Positions 8,918-38,514 of a stretch of DNA of 51,391 nt are shown piece by piece. Position 1 is the first letter of the stretch. Every line of letters starts with the position of its first letter. A program made the translations under genes and the position numbers. Origin of the DNA: Hysterium pulicare CBS 123377 (taxonomy: Eukaryota; Ascomycota; Dothideomycetes; Hysteriales; Hysteriaceae); assembly GCA_000467715.1 (NCBI GenBank), contig AJFK01000226.1, positions 1-51,391 on the forward strand, in the 5' to 3' direction. The notes below the pieces were generated by a model, which worked only from the letters and a program-made list of their open reading frames with translations, had not been told where the DNA came from and did not search any database.

Positions 8918-10257
8918 TCATTCCCACTCAGCAGCTTCCTCCAAAGCTTCGTTAATCTTTGCAGGATCATCTTGGATCAGCCCAACCATGTACTTGTACT
9001 CCAAACTCATGATCCTCGGCGTCACGCCTTCCGGTCGCCGAATGACGCCACGGAACTGGCTCATTGGGATACTCTTCTCCTCCTGCCATTCAAGTACTTT
9101 CTCAAAGTCGCGACACTGGCGGTTGATGCTGAAATCAGGGTATGGTTCATCGCCTACATCAACCCAGTAATCTGTATTAAAGGGTTAGGTTTGAGGGATT
9201 GTTAAAGGGAGGGAGGAGTTACGTACGAATGAACGGATCTGTATTCGCAGAGCACATCAACGATTGCAGGAGTGCGTAAATGCAGTGCGAGACGTGGACT
9301 TTGTGATCTGAAGTTGCATCGCTTGGTTTGTGCCATCCTTTCTCGGAATAGTAATGTTCAAAGTGGACTTCTCTGCGGAGCATGTCTAAACAATGTATCT
9401 CGTGGAAGACATCCAGTCTAGCGACTATGGAAGTATTTTAGCATCATCGCTTTGATAGAGAAAGCTTTCGTCATTCACAACGTACCATATGCGTCGTCTC
9501 CCAAACCGTAGACATCCGGCCACCTAGCCACCGTATCCGGATCATATCCAATGTTGCGCACATCTTGAGAAGAGATGGGAACAGGGTTTATGTTGGCCAA
9601 CCGATGCCATGCTTTATCGACTGCATCGGACGGATCTTGACGGAAGAGAGAAGGGGGGTGATTGGGGAGAAGAGAGCCATTGCGGCGTATTGTGGTGAGT
9701 GGAATATGGAGTTGATCTAGGATAGGGGCTACAGCGCGTTAGATGGAATCAATATGCTCATTTGGAGGCTTACAGGGCATAGAAACTTGTCGGATCAGTG
9801 TGTTATTAAAGCGATCATGCCATTTTAGTTGCAACTGTGGCCATGCTTGGGCGGCCAGTAATCCCGTGCTCAAAAGGAGCAATCCGTTCAGCACGAGAGA
9901 CAAGTAAAGGAGCCATCGATAAGGCCTTTTCTGGTGTAATTTCGATTGAAAGCATTCGGACGTGCGGGATGGTGAATCGGTTTCAGTGAAGAGAGCTTCG
10001 CTGGAGGACTTCTCCTCATCCGAATCATCGGAGTACGGTCGGATCTGGTCGTACTTTTGCTTCCATTGAGGCATCCAGGCTGTTAAAGAAGGCATGCTCA
10101 ATACTGAAGTGCCTATATTGAAGGACCAGGGCGTCGAGTCTTCAAACAACCTGCCGTGCAAAATAGAATGTAAGTCTTCAAAATCGAGCTCAGTAGAAGG
10201 TGGACTGAGAAGACCCAAAAAGTGGGAACAAGACGCTCTCCGAAGCGGATCCGACAA
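8918..10257 (-). CDS. UstYa-like DUF3328 protein (probable peptide-modifying oxidase)
   Basis: Four exons, 10257-9774, 9728-9486, 9424-9227 and 9171-8918, join with consistent phase-1 junctions to an open frame. The longest form is 392 aa; an in-frame ATG at 10095 (338 aa) fits the usual family N-terminus better. From that start a single membrane segment lies at about residues 60-81, after an acidic Ser-rich tail. Two copies of the family hallmark HxxHC are present, HEIHC (about 196-200) and HVSHC (about 232-236). Family knowledge: UstYa proteins act in dikaritin RiPP pathways such as ustiloxin and asperipin, where they oxidatively crosslink or cyclise core peptides; the His/Cys motif is thought to bind metal. 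The gene is divergent from the repeat precursor at 11243 with about 1-1.1 kb between starts, so it is the obvious candidate modifying enzyme. The substrate and reaction are inferred. Confidence 0.85.
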
Positions 10258-11242
10258 ACAACTATTCTCTAATCAAAGGAGCATTTGACAGAATAGCCGA
10301 TACACCCGGAATCTTGGTGACACAGGACGTTGGTGGCTTGAAAAGGTGACGACGGAGTGCTTGTCCCGTAAACATTTAATCCAGTATTGTGACATTCGGC
10401 CCCCGTGGTGGAGGCCTTGTAGCACTAATAGCGGCATTTTGTTCATGGGCACACGAACAAGATGCTTGCAAATGGGGCGAAGGATGCAGAGATAAAAGTG
10501 AGCTTCCTATTTAGTGATGATATAGATGGGAAGTCGGTGTTGGAGGTTGGATATCTGACCAACTTAAGCTTATTGGGCCCGCAACCCCGCAGCCGTGGTA
10601 TGCCCCGTTTGCGCCACGTGCGGCCGCTATCCCCTGGAACGGCGAAAGAAGCTTTCAGCGGACGAGACAAGCTTTCAAGTGCCTGACTGGGCCGAGCCTC
10701 GCCCGTGCCGTGTTGCAGACCATTACTACCATTTCCCCAGAGAAGCAAATGCAGTAGTTCTTATATATCTCGACGCTAACTTTGCCCATCTTCCCAGCAT
10801 CACCGGGGGTCGGTGGATAGTGTCTCATTTATTCATCATGTACGTCCTCATATGCTGGTGCCAGTAGAACGCCACCATATCAATGGCGTCGTTGGTTTTT
10901 GATATCCTACCACCTATGACGGATTTGGTACCCTGTCGAGCACCGATTTCACGACCCAAGTCTTACCTTGTCGGGAAGGTTGTATAGACGACCGCCCATC
11001 TTCTTTCCCCGTATCCTTGTGCACGGAGCTCAGAAACGTCTCCATTGGATTCCACATGACGGTCAGGAAAGGATTTCCTCGGCATATGATAACCGTCAAC
11101 TCCAGAATGTTGCATGAATTCGGCGAGTGCCCGCCTTAGCAGGCTTATGTTCTGTCCCCCTGCCCATCTCCTCTCTATATCTCACCTCCACGTCTTGCCC
11201 TTCGAGTTTGACACATTTGTCCCGTTTTCATCCTTTACCGTC
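10258..11242. promoter_or_regulatory. shared divergent promoter of UstYa-like gene and RiPP precursor
   Basis: About 1 kb separates the two divergent starts and holds no supportable gene. A TATA-like ttatatatc is near 10760 and another weak one (ctctatatctc) near 11173. Pyrimidine-rich sequence precedes the precursor ATG, as is common before fungal transcription starts. CGG and CCG triplets are frequent around 10570-10640, where a GC-rich block includes cgccacgtgcggccg, but no defined regulator site can be claimed. A common promoter would allow co-expression of enzyme and precursor. Confidence 0.45.
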
Positions 11243-11689
11243 ATGCATATCAAAGTTTCTCTCGCCCTCGCGGTCCTGCTCGGTCTTGCCATGGCTGCTC
11301 CAGTTGCTCCCGCAGCCGAGGAGACGGCAATGGAGAAACGTGAGGAGGGCATATATGGCTATTACTGCACTCCCAGTACATGCACCGCCAAAGTGGTACG
11401 AGAGGAAGGTATCTACAACTATTACTGCACCCCAAGTACATGCAAGACCAAGGAGAAGCGCAAGCCCGAAGAGGGAATCTACGACTACTACTGCTTTGGG
11501 AGTTCTTGCAAGCGCTCCGCTGAGCCAGAAGACGGAATTTACAACTATTACTGCACCGGTTCCGGGTGCGGTAAGAAGCTGAAGCGAGAGGAGGGTATCT
11601 ATGACTATTATTGTTATGGCTCTGGTTGTGGGAAGATGACGAAGCGAGACCCTCAGGATTTCGAAGACGAGGTTGTTCGTTCAGCCTAG
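11243..11689 (+). CDS. secreted repeat-peptide precursor (dikaritin/KEP-type RiPP candidate), 148 aa
   Basis: The chosen ATG begins a classical signal peptide (about residues 1-19, ending LAMAAP). Five repeats follow, each with the pattern E-[ED]-G-I-Y-x-Y-Y-C-x(4)-C: GIYGYYCTPSTC, GIYNYYCTPSTC, GIYDYYCFGSSC, GIYNYYCTGSGC and GIYDYYCYGSGC. Basic linkers between them end in KR or, once, VVR, which are Kex2-like cleavage sites. Glu, Gly, Ile, three Tyr and both Cys are invariant while codons differ, so peptide sequence is under constraint. An acidic tail closes the protein. Family knowledge: dikaritin precursors have a signal peptide, Kex2-spaced repeats and Tyr-containing cores that UstYa enzymes crosslink, and a UstYa-like gene lies divergently upstream. 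The Tyr-x-Tyr-Tyr-Cys core does not match the ustiloxin, phomopsin or asperipin cores known to me. Alternative: an unmodified Kex2-processed repeat protein with disulfide peptides. The product's activity is unknown. Confidence 0.85.
   Translation: MHIKVSLALAVLLGLAMAAPVAPAAEETAMEKREEGIYGYYCTPSTCTAKVVREEGIYNYYCTPSTCKTKEKRKPEEGIYDYYCFGSSCKRSAEPEDGIYNYYCTGSGCGKKLKREEGIYDYYCYGSGCGKMTKRDPQDFEDEVVRSA
11342..11634 (+). repeat. five in-frame core-peptide repeats
   Basis: Repeat cores begin near 11342, 11402, 11468, 11528 and 11588, so unit spacing is 60-66 bp. Within each 42-nt core most differences are at third codon positions, while variable amino acids are confined to the residue after the first Tyr (G/N/D) and the four residues between the cysteines. 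This is a coding repeat, not a satellite. Confidence 0.9.
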
Positions 11690-11760
11690 CGTTCTTCAGT
11701 GCAACTCCCGTAAGTATGCAAACTGGACTGTGACGCAATGCTGATTCTCGTTTCCAGGTG
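11690..11760 (+). other. 3' UTR of the precursor with a probable intron (11710-11757)
   Basis: Twenty bases after the stop codon a GTAAGT donor is followed 48 nt later by a TTTCCAG acceptor, with a branch-like ctgat between. An intron in the 3' UTR is therefore likely. It has no effect on the protein. Confidence 0.5.
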
Positions 11761-13750: not shown

Positions 13751-15049
13751 TTATTGTACCATCCCCCTCGCATCAACCGGCCAGATCTCCTCAATGATAC
13801 CCTTTCGATGCGCGTAATAAAAGTCATGCAAGTTGATCGTCGGATCAATATGGCTAGGAATCATCTCAACGCGATCACCAACATCTAAGCCCGGATCATC
13901 ACCCTCCCAACTCAAACTCCCATGCTCATCGCCAAGGACGTCGTAAGTGTATCCAGACAGGTCCTTTGGCTCTGCAAGCCCACTATCTGTAGGGAGTGAT
14001 TTGAGTCCACTATCAATGGTCACACATCTGGGGCTTTGCTTGCTTATGACGGTAGAGAGGATGGTCAGACTGTTCGAGTAGAATGTGCCGACCGCGTTGC
14101 GGTAATCTGTGTCCATGAAGATGAAAGAACCGGGTTGAACTTCTGTCACACCGGAGACAGTGACACAGAATTCTGCTGTACCGGTACCACCTGTTGTCAC
14201 TACTTGAATGTCATAGCCAGCTTTACGGAGGGATTCGGCGGTGCCGGTTAAGATTGCCATCGATTCAAGGCAGAGTTTCTTGCGTTCGTCGAAGGAGTGG
14301 AGATGTTGCAGATGCCCCTCGTAGCCCTGCACACCTATAAGCTTGAGGTGTTTGCAGCTGTTGATGCATTGTGCCAGAGCCATTGCGGGTTCCCCAGGAG
14401 CAACCCCAGTCCGATGCAGTCCCACATCGAGGTCGATGAGGACGGAGATAGGTTCTTCGATACCAGACGACGCCAACGCGTCATCAATTGCTTTAGCACC
14501 CTTCTGACTGTCGATGACGATCCTAATCTTCCTATTCTTTCTGAAAAGATTGACGAGTCTCGCAACTTTCGGTGCCCCAATGATTTCGCACGTGATCAGA
14601 AGGTCGTGAAACCCGCATTTCGTGATTACTTCTGCCTCGCTCAACTTCGCTACACACCCGCCTTTTGCGCCGGCATCGTTCAGTTTGCGTGCTAGAATGG
14701 CGCTTTTCGTTGTTTTCAGATGCGGTCGTATGCTTATGTTGGTGGGTAAGAGGCGGTCCATGAGCTTTTTGATGTTGGCCTCCATGAGGTCGAGGTCTAC
14801 GATCATTGATGGTGTATCGAGGCTTTCTAGCCGGTCTCCGACTTTTGGTTGGTACATCTTGGGCTTCGCTTGACTGGCGGAATATCTCGTATGGAGAAGG
14901 ACACCTCGTGAGAGAGCGGATACTGCGTTTCGAGCCCCTGGAAAACAGTTTCTCTTGGCCAACTTCAAACCGATTCTTGCTGAACGGCTGGTCGCAGTTT
15001 GCACAATGCGTGATGAAAGCATCAATGTTTCGGGACATGGAACTCTCAA
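13751..15049 (-). CDS. D-threonine aldolase-type PLP enzyme (alanine racemase-like fold)
   Basis: Single exon; 432 aa from the first ATG, or 368 aa from the in-frame ATG at 14857, where similarity to the family seems to begin. The family uses pyridoxal phosphate on a type III fold, with an N-terminal barrel and a C-terminal metal-binding domain. The PLP lysine is in RPHLKTTK (K112, long numbering). Near the C-terminus PSHIDPTINLHD places His400 and Asp402 where the metal ligands lie. Family knowledge: His plus Asp fits D-threonine aldolases (D-threonine to glycine and acetaldehyde), whereas eukaryotic D-serine dehydratases use His plus Cys. The first 64 residues are basic, Ser/Arg-rich and almost free of acids, so the long form may carry a mitochondrial targeting peptide. 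Any role in the RiPP locus 2.5 kb away is speculation. Confidence 0.85.
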   Translation of the reverse strand: MRVPCPETLMLSSRIVQTATSRSARIGLKLAKRNCFPGARNAVSALSRGVLLHTRYSASQAKPKMYQPKVGDRLESLDTPSMIVDLDLMEANIKKLMDRLLPTNISIRPHLKTTKSAILARKLNDAGAKGGCVAKLSEAEVITKCGFHDLLITCEIIGAPKVARLVNLFRKNRKIRIVIDSQKGAKAIDDALASSGIEEPISVLIDLDVGLHRTGVAPGEPAMALAQCINSCKHLKLIGVQGYEGHLQHLHSFDERKKLCLESMAILTGTAESLRKAGYDIQVVTTGGTGTAEFCVTVSGVTEVQPGSFIFMDTDYRNAVGTFYSNSLTILSTVISKQSPRCVTIDSGLKSLPTDSGLAEPKDLSGYTYDVLGDEHGSLSWEGDDPGLDVGDRVEMIPSHIDPTINLHDFYYAHRKGIIEEIWPVDARGMVQ

Positions 15050-15434
15050 AGGCTCTTGAGGGTGGGGTTCGATGATATATCGGTAATATTTCCCGACTCG
15101 GTATTCCGGTCCAGATGCACGTGCCGAGTCCGCGTAACGTAAGCGCCAAGGAATGTTATGACGGGCTCAGGTATCCTAGCGGGTTTAAACATCCTCCATA
15201 CCACACATAAAAAGAATTGGACGATAAAGCGAGGAACATTGATGATGCCTAACAATATGCGATGATTGCAGAAGCGATTGGTAATATGAAGTCAGGTGTT
15301 CCATTCCTAAGTGAGCTTCGTGGCCCTCCTGCGGCGATAATCAGGTGAAACTTCGTAACACGTTGCCTCTTTCATTCAACTTCCCAAAAGACTCCTGTCT
15401 TCTTAGACTGAGTTCTAACATATCATCATTCACA

Positions 15435-36377: not shown

Positions 36378-37157
36378 TCAAACATGGTGATCGTGTTCCA
36401 AAACCCAGCTCTCCAACGCATTCCAGTCCCGACATTGATGGACTTGGCCATCTCCAAAGACTTTCCCGTCCTCCGAGTAAAGGAGAGTATCGTCTGCAGA
36501 GCACATCACGGACTGTCGTACTGAATCTAAACAATGAATCATATGCTGCCACGCGACCGTTTGCTCCTTGCCCTCCTTCCAATGATATAAGGCCGCCCGA
36601 ACCACAGACTGTCGATGGTCAAAATGGAATCAAGAGCACCCAGAGTTCATACTTACTAGGCAGTGAAGATGATGATATGCTGAGACAAAGTACACGCTTT
36701 CTGACTCATTATTCGGGTTCTTCATGCTTACTGGGAGTTTGTGCGCCCGCGTCCACTCATGTGGAAGATAAACGACTCCTTGGTTGACTGGGAAGAGATC
36801 TCTCCACAATTTGTTCATCTCCGTCTTGTTGTCACTCGAGTACCTTGTGTCCCAGTGGAAAGGCTTGAGGGCCATCTCGTCGGAATTCCCTATACCATGG
36901 TAAACTCTACCAACCTTCTTTGATTTTGCTGATCTTAACATACAGTATGTATTGTCTACCTTCAAAGGGTCCCGACGCGCACTATTCCACATCCACGCCG
37001 CATTCGATAACACAAGAGCCAGAAGGTTGACTACCAGCAAGTATCGAGTCCAACTCCTTCCCAAACGACTCACCTCTCGCGGAACTGCAAAGTCCGCGTC
37101 AGGTTCGTCGATCGAGTTTCGATCGAGAGTCAGATAGGCTTTTTCCTGGCGATTCAT
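36378..37157 (-). CDS. second UstYa-like DUF3328 protein, 243 aa
   Basis: Two exons, 37157-36657 and 36608-36378; the intron starts GTAAGT and ends CGACAG at a phase-0 junction. One membrane segment spans about residues 39-57 (YLLVVNLLALVLSNAAWMW), giving a short cytosolic tail and a lumenal domain. Both hallmark motifs are seen, HHLHC (162-166) and HMIHC (189-193), as well as the family-like LWRDLFPVNQGVVYLP. The protein is complete and close to the usual 230-270 aa. It should act on peptides or small molecules in the secretory pathway, as other family members do. No precursor peptide is visible beside it, and it is 25 kb from the repeat precursor, so partnership is open. A short GTATGT-containing stretch near 36940 could be read as an intron but the frame is open through it. 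Confidence 0.88.
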
Positions 37158-38514
37158 GGTGGCGTTTCGATGGCGTTTTCTGAAAGATAGAGCGTTGTCG
37201 GCTTTCTTTCAGCTAAGAGCACACGATCGTCTACATCAAACCCCGAATAACGTCAAGTTTAAGGCCCTTCTAGTGGCATACTAGCTCCACGCCACCATCG
37301 ATGGAGTTTGGTTTCGATTCGGCCCCCAAAAATCCAGGGTCGGCAGTTCTGCTTAGTGACATTGGTAGAGTGATCCGCCCACGGTGCTGGAGGCAATTAA
37401 TGATAGGGTGTACCGGCTATGTTACATGCTGTGCCACCCTACAGGTAAGTCTGGCCCTTGCCATTGCATGGGTATGCATCCCTCGATGCGGGAGCTACAA
37501 GCAAAACCCCAATACAAGCGGCCCCACCACTCTGATCAGACCTCTCGGCGCTTGCGGCAGAATTTGATCCAAGCATGCAAGCTTATCTTCATAGGCGTGA
37601 TCAAACGGTCGTTGAGACGATCTACGTTGGGATCTGCCTGGATCCTCCGTGCCGAGAAAGGAACCTCGTTAGCAAGGTTCCTAACAGTGGTATTTGGGAT
37701 CCCATCTGCGGAGCCCCCGAATCACGTTCCACTCCACGGAAATGCTCCTCAGGCGCGTCTTCCACAGTATAGTAGATTTACGGGCCTTCTATATATTGTA
37801 CCATGACAAGTCTGTAAAGGGGTTGAAGGAGCATTGCGAGAGATAGGAAATGATCAGCAAGCCAATTACGAATAAGAAAAGTAATACGGTTGGGACAGCA
37901 GTTTGACGCGTCAACATCGTCTCAGAGCCTTTTCCACACACGCATTAGGTGCGGATCATTTCCACGGTAGTTGAGCCTGTGCCCCTTCCATCAACCAGCC
38001 ACGGACAACCACTAGACCAGCGTGGAACCGTTAGGTTGGGTTTATGGAAACGAGAATTTGTAGAGTATTGCGCGTGACCTTTTGACCAGACCTCCTGCTA
38101 TACTTAGACATTCTGAATGTTCAACACGGGTAGAAGATATTCAGGTTCATGGATAGAGCTGGTAACTGCGTACGTGGATGAAGTGGGTCCATGTTTCAGT
38201 TGCTGGGCGATTTGGCCGTTGAAACGTCTGCTGCGAGACATGCAGAGATAAAAGTACAGAAATAGAAGGTTATATTAGCCGCATTGTTGGGGATGGTTGA
38301 TTAAAAGGAATAAGCGAACACGGAGGGCTGCGGTCCGCAACCGGGGGCACGGAAGATCTTCCTCGCCGCATGGTGAACGGTACCTGACACACCGGCATGC
38401 AAACGACCTAGATACGTTACACCACGTGAGAACCATCACAGCCTCAAATTGGATAATTTATATCGACAGCTTCATCCTCAACGGTGGTTCGGAATTCGGC
38501 ACGTTCATGGCAAA
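37158..38514. other. intergenic, no gene seen
   Basis: About 1.36 kb without a supportable gene. Overlapping plus-strand frames at 37301-37806 show no domain or consistent codon pattern. Confidence 0.4.

Follow-up and report, generated by a model that had tools for sequence, protein, structure and literature searches.

The locus described here raises the question of whether a gene for a repetitive protein with a signal-peptide-like start and the UstYa gene beside it form a RiPP locus, and which residues of the peptide the enzyme would act on. We addressed this question in the window, i.e., the whole stretch of 51,391 nucleotides that was analysed, which is one contig (C179) of the 37.2-Mb genome of H. 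pulicare in 596 contigs. The UstYa genes, the introns and the named homologues are such as would be expected of a filamentous ascomycete.

A precursor gene with five near-identical cores

The precursor gene was delimited by its open reading frame and hydropathy, and its start and tail are common to two related proteins (P0037 and P0038, see below). The gene and its cores are located as follows:

11243..11689, + strand: precursor gene, single exon, 148 aa, DPQDFEDEVVRSA
11342..11383, + strand: core 1, starting at residue 34, EEGIYGYYCTPSTC
11402..11443, + strand: core 2, starting at residue 54, EEGIYNYYCTPSTC; junction 1/2 with a single R only
11468..11509, + strand: core 3, starting at residue 76, EEGIYDYYCFGSSC
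11528..11569, + strand: core 4, starting at residue 96, EDGIYNYYCTGSGC
11588..11629, + strand: core 5, starting at residue 116, EEGIYDYYCYGSGC

A hydrophobic N-terminus, which resembles a signal peptide by hydropathy and inspection (best 10-residue Kyte-Doolittle mean 2.82), is followed by a short pro-region ending in EKR, the five cores and an acidic tail. All five cores show the pattern E-[E/D]-G-I-Y-x-Y-Y-C-x4-C, with both cysteines kept in each, as a preliminary description of this DNA had claimed. That description also had the cores separated mostly by KR, which is borne out: KR sites are located before core 1, at three of the four junctions between cores (2/3, 3/4 and 4/5) and after core 5, while junction 1/2 reads VVR, with one basic residue and no dibasic site. 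The precursor is a Kex2-processed repeat protein (KEP) in the sense that it has near-identical repeats with Kex2 sites between them.

Over all 14 codons, summed over the ten core pairs, pS was 0.93 and pN was 0.19 (ratio 0.206). The nine conserved core positions alone gave a ratio of 0.015, but 0.206 represents the fair ratio because these nine positions were picked for their conservation. As synonymous changes have nearly reached saturation but the peptide has been retained, the core repeat is neither a chance pattern nor recent, and the codon comparison indicates that the cores are under strong purifying selection.

The core is also rare in its surroundings. Among 482,564 six-frame residues, covering the window and 20 other regions, Y.YYC or GIY.YY matched five times in the precursor reading frame and once elsewhere (in region L024). 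In the whole genome, a DNA pattern for EGIYxYYC was found exactly at four places and with one mismatch at one place, all in the precursor reading frame; with two mismatches, five other places were found. A reversed control pattern gave nine. When the precursor protein was compared to its own genome, the sole match at E <= 10 was the precursor itself. Pfam also matched the precursor with a DNA-ligase zinc finger (34.8 bits), but no single stretch passes, and we rejected this match as an artefact of the summed C-x4-C repeats.

A UstYa gene lies head to head with the precursor gene

Upstream of the precursor gene, the following features were found:

10096..11242, no strand: shared upstream region, 1147 bp, between the ATGs of the precursor and UstYa genes
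8918..10095, - strand: UstYa (DUF3328, PF11807) gene, 338 aa, four exons (10095-9774, 9728-9486, 9424-9227 and 9171-8918)

The PF11807 match scored 199.9 bits (cut-off 25) and covers residues 54-286 of the protein and positions 3-219 of the 220 in the profile. The three introns (45, 61 and 55 bp) are of the GT..AG type, and homologues align straight through the splice points; overall, both reading frames of the pair are intact and the introns canonical. The UstYa protein has one N-terminal hydrophobic segment and carries the HxxHC(x)nHxxHC copper motif as HEIHC (196-200) and HVSHC (232-236). These gene models agree with the preliminary description, which had placed the locus at 8918-11757 and reported a divergent neighbour with both HxxHC motifs of UstYa. 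In a published account (PMC12435403), the DUF3328 protein CctR is shown to be a dimer that associates with membranes and acts as a copper enzyme, its binuclear centre being located at HxxHC(x)nHxxHC; the account also reports that the cyclase AprY depends on copper and oxygen.

A search with the UstYa protein identified 36 homologues at E <= 0.001 among 1555 candidates. Close homologues, with 60-72% identity over 62-99% of the query, were found in Xylographa bjoerkii, Phialocephala subalpina, Penicilliopsis zonata and Aspergillus ellipticus, and from this similarity we infer that they are orthologues; other homologues (ena/jgi/lgn entries) showed up to 80% identity over 48% of the query. Among the 34 aligned rows, the residues of the first motif were present in 34 (H196), 32 (H199) and 32 (C200) and those of the second motif in 26 (H232), 29 (H235) and 26 (C236). 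At each position of the second HxxHC motif, 5 to 8 of the 34 rows have a substitution or a gap (gaps in only 1-2 rows), and this motif is not universal among the aligned homologues. Further searches gave no confirmed match, either for the close homologue P0005 against viral contigs (3 pattern matches) or for the UstYa alignment against bacterial and archaeal genome contigs (33 pattern matches), and the alignment had no match by sequence in the PDB.

Relatives of the precursor share a tyrosine-rich core without cysteines

As a single protein query, the precursor yielded 85 candidates, none with E <= 1. Of the 1447 candidates from a second query, in which the five cores were written twice, two proteins reached E <= 10, i.e., P0037 (217 aa, E 5e-27) and P0038 (139 aa, E 4e-13), both JGI-sourced; as both are of admitted size and yet had been missed, the single-query search lost them at the word stage. 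As doubling a repetitive query inflates its E-values, we used pairwise BLASTP with the real precursor instead. These comparisons gave 103 bits for P0037 and 76.6 bits for P0038, covering start, cores and tail, while P0037 and P0038 are closer to each other (107 bits, 52%).

Both relatives resemble the precursor in their start, their tail (QDFADD as compared to QDFEDE in the precursor), their EEGIYTYY repeats and their mostly dibasic junctions, with a single R ahead of the first core of P0037. They differ in the number of EEGIY cores, six in P0037 and four in P0038, and in the absence of cysteine from all ten of them; nine of these cores read EEGIYTYY and one reads EEGIYTYS. Only P0037 has a C-terminal extension, which contains one cysteine. 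The constant part of the three members is EEGIYxY(Y), with one change of E to D and one of Y to S, and core positions 9 and 14 are Cys in the precursor and other residues in P0037 and P0038. The YxYYC(x4)C core proposed in the preliminary description thus holds for all five cores of the precursor but not for the family, whose core, as the three sequences indicate, is EEGIYxYY, the C-x4-C pair being known only from the H. pulicare version. An outgroup would be needed to tell a gain of cysteines in the precursor from a loss in its relatives. As the cores of P0037 and P0038 lack cysteine, the substrate shared by the partner enzymes cannot need cysteines, and most simply it would be the I-Y-x-Y-Y stretch.

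The preliminary description had suggested co-occurrence of precursor homologues with UstYa genes as a check. The UstYa homologue P0010 (74% identity over 57% of the query) is from a JGI contig of 3482 bp, and P0037 is likewise from a JGI contig of 3482 bp. Judged from this equal size, which a chance tie could also produce, P0010 and P0037 are probably on one contig and the linkage has been kept in a relative. The contig of P0038 (2624 bp) does not equal the contig of any UstYa match in size.

Repeat precursors in other UstYa regions of the genome

At least 43 UstYa matches, counting exon pieces, are spread over 27 contigs of the genome. We read 20 UstYa regions, on 19 of the other 26 UstYa contigs, using a scan for open reading frames with at least three similar ten-residue stretches and at least two [KR]R pairs, from which precursors were picked by eye if they had Kex2-type sites between the repeats and a signal-peptide-like start. 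From the list that the scan produced, we dropped L001 and L008, which cover the places of L018 and L026, as well as L009-L013 and L017, which represent the window locus, and other-frame reading frames over the same repeats (L001, L018, L028 and the window). Repeat precursors were found in five of the 20 regions (L018, L024, L026, L028 and L035), each repeat frame being separated by 0.9 to 2.0 kb from its closest UstYa match; the signal-peptide-like start was in an upstream exon for all but L028. Those other than L026, which is described below, and one found by a looser scan, are as follows:

L018:6310-6657: Kex2-repeat precursor near UstYa (repeat scan; upstream exon seen)
L024:2810-3283: Kex2-repeat precursor near UstYa (repeat scan; upstream exon seen)
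L028:6967-8181: Kex2-repeat precursor near UstYa, di-histidine HHKGQ repeat (signal-peptide-like start within the reading frame)
L035:1378-1725: Kex2-repeat precursor near UstYa (repeat scan; upstream exon seen)
L030:8112-8426: Kex2-repeat precursor, UstYa about 2.8 kb away (looser scan only, counted apart)

Three L032 reading frames with tandem repeats were dropped, as they had no signal-peptide-like start; in the looser scan, one L032 frame and a WD-repeat-like L018 frame were dropped. In 11 control loci, together 33,264 bases, no repeat precursor was seen; this control is small, and its loci came from pattern matches and were not random.

Including the window, five of six precursor/UstYa pairs were divergent (binomial P = 0.0046 if one in four is expected by chance), as compared to four of five without the window (P = 0.016) and six of seven with L030; within the pairs of L018, L024, L026, L028 and L035, intervening genes are possible. 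Upstream of the six divergent pairs, seven 8-base words were shared by four pairs (2.35 expected) and none by five or six, and no 9- or 10-base word was shared by four or more.

Region L026 (contig C37) contains an open frame of 420 aa (L026:2421-3683, - strand), in which nine repeats of the TNWYADSASG type, with KR separating several of them, are joined to a C-terminal part that carries the motifs HQYHC and HTIHC. This frame matched the Pfam UstYa profile with E 0.15, below the cut-off, and in an hhalign comparison with the UstYa alignment, both motifs were aligned (probability 26%, E 0.0007); a separate UstYa match is located 0.9 kb away in divergent orientation. The frame is a candidate for a precursor that forms one protein with its own UstYa-like enzyme, an arrangement that recalls the plant BURP cyclases, in which precursor and enzyme are fused.

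Neighbouring genes and comparison with known systems

The Pfam scan of the window covered 149 of its 326 open reading frames of at least 62 aa; the scan excluded most antisense or overlapping frames and may overlook short exons. The neighbours identified are a D-serine dehydratase-like gene (13754-15166), GH92, a PHB-type esterase, a tannase, a fungal rhodopsin-type protein and a GNAT domain, as well as the following genes:

about 26-27.5 kb of the window: S10 carboxypeptidase
about 32-33.7 kb of the window: amino-acid permease, some 20 kb from the pair
about 36393-37208, - strand: second UstYa gene

The possible helpers (S10 carboxypeptidase, permease, second UstYa and GNAT) are at least about 14 kb away, beyond unrelated genes, and the window gave no further repeat precursor in the scan, including near the second UstYa gene. 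None of the 149 scanned frames matched a tyrosinase, S41 peptidase, methyltransferase, zinc-cluster regulator, P450, flavin monooxygenase or MFS transporter.

The clusters behind the name dikaritin are described as sharing tyrosinase-type PhomQ homologues, a zinc-finger regulator and S41 peptidases (PMC6514808), the tyrosinase being mentioned also in PMC7329392. In this strict sense, the scanned frames do not make the locus a dikaritin cluster; in the broad sense, i.e., a repeat precursor adjoining a UstYa (DUF3328) gene, the arrangement at 8918-11757 fits, and its core would be cyclised. The "defining minimal dikaritin arrangement" of the preliminary description is thus apt for the broad sense but too strong as worded, since strict clusters share more genes.

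Among known systems, the asperipin-2a locus (aprA, aprY, a transporter and an isoflavone reductase homologue; PMC6514808) is alike in its Tyr-rich core, single UstYa-type enzyme and few genes. Its core FYYTGY has no cysteine, in contrast to the C-x4-C found here, and it has a reductase and a transporter, whereas no reductase was matched here and the permease is the sole transporter match. Ustiloxin and phomopsin, which are strict dikaritins, are alike in their Kex2-site repeat precursor and UstYa-type enzymes, but they differ in core sequence and have the tyrosinase, S41 peptidases and methyltransferase that were unmatched in our scanned frames. The epichloecyclins (GigA), likened here by description only, share repeats and KR sites, their signal sequence corresponds to the signal-peptide-like start found here, and they are cyclised at tyrosine.

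In a survey of fungi (PMC7329392), DUF3328 genes are reported near 1758 of 7878 KEPs (22%), most often at the next position; 65.6% of the repeats of DUF3328-linked KEPs contain Y as compared to 38.2% of the rest, and most KEP types are confined to a single genus. As DUF3328-linked Kex2-repeat precursors are common, the locus belongs to an already known kind; the kind of pathway is known, while the peptide core looks new and its cysteine pair unusual. Core strings of the EEGIYxYY family were found in none of the papers searched, and supplementary tables and a 2016 Aspergillus survey (94 clusters) may list the core; similarly, the titles and abstract openings listed for DUF3328 and cysteine contained no report of a cysteine-bearing UstYa-linked core.

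Interpretation of the precursor/UstYa pair

We consider it likely (probability of roughly 0.75) that the pair is a minimal two-gene UstYa-type RiPP locus, a dikaritin locus in the broad sense, in which the enzyme would cross-link the I-Y-x-Y-Y stretch and a disulfide would have been added in this lineage. The precursor would enter the secretory pathway, where the UstYa protein, presumably membrane-anchored and a binuclear copper enzyme like CctR, would oxidatively join a tyrosine to a nearby side chain in I-Y-x-Y-Y. This chemistry is proposed by analogy, as tyrosine is described as tied to isoleucine in ustiloxin and phomopsin and tyrosines to beta-carbons in asperipin (PMC9233826, PMC6514808). 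Kex2 would then cut at KR and exopeptidases would trim the products, and a disulfide would form between the two cysteines of C-x4-C. The pathway would thus release up to five variants of a small cyclic peptide that is secreted; a role in chemical defence or signalling is our guess.

As the UstYa family is large in this genome, adjacency alone is modest evidence, and UstYa enzymes are reported to serve non-RiPP pathways too (PMC12048977). The precursor could encode a secreted Kex2 peptide (a signal or antimicrobial) that carries a disulfide only, with the UstYa gene adjoining by chance or for another pathway. This explanation, the strongest of the competitors though improbable, would fit with both C-x4-C cysteines being kept in five of five cores and with the 6120 of 7878 KEPs reported without DUF3328 nearby (PMC7329392). 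Against it, the ten cores of the relatives lack Cys and yet retain I-Y-x-Y in all ten and the next Y in nine. In addition, only about 0.3-0.6% of the genome is that near a UstYa match, the linkage of P0037 and P0010 has probably been kept in a relative, and divergent precursor/UstYa pairing recurs in the genome.

A variant in which the copper enzyme also uses the lineage-specific cysteines, forming a Tyr-Cys thioether or other sulfur link in the YYC stretch after Cys substitution into an older EEGIYxYY core, is rather unlikely; to our knowledge, sulfur cross-link chemistry is not known for UstYa enzymes. A decayed or non-expressed locus, which the lack of any usual cluster gene adjoining the pair among the scanned frames might suggest, is very unlikely given the intact frames, canonical introns and core pN/pS of 0.206.

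An alpha-type mating pheromone precursor would have the same plan, with a signal peptide (here a signal-peptide-like start), KR repeats and two cysteines per repeat, and one SAEP stretch in the precursor resembles a dipeptidyl-peptidase spacer. This identity was rejected as highly improbable, as an ordinary pheromone precursor gene with five CHLVGQSC and one CGMPGQPC is located elsewhere (L046, contig C149:29650-30650, - strand), its C...GQ.C pattern is absent from the cores described here, and 98.6% of 216 putative fungal pheromones are reported without a DUF3328 gene nearby (PMC7329392).

Overall, these data define a small family of UstYa-partnered EEGIYxYY precursors, with three sequences so far, in which one Tyr-rich stretch is kept while the rest of the core drifts, which points to the residues that the enzyme probably acts on. 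The frequent head-to-head pairing in this genome could help to find precursors elsewhere. The cysteine-bearing core of H. pulicare offers a natural case in which to test whether one small ribosomal peptide may carry a UstYa cross-link as well as a disulfide.
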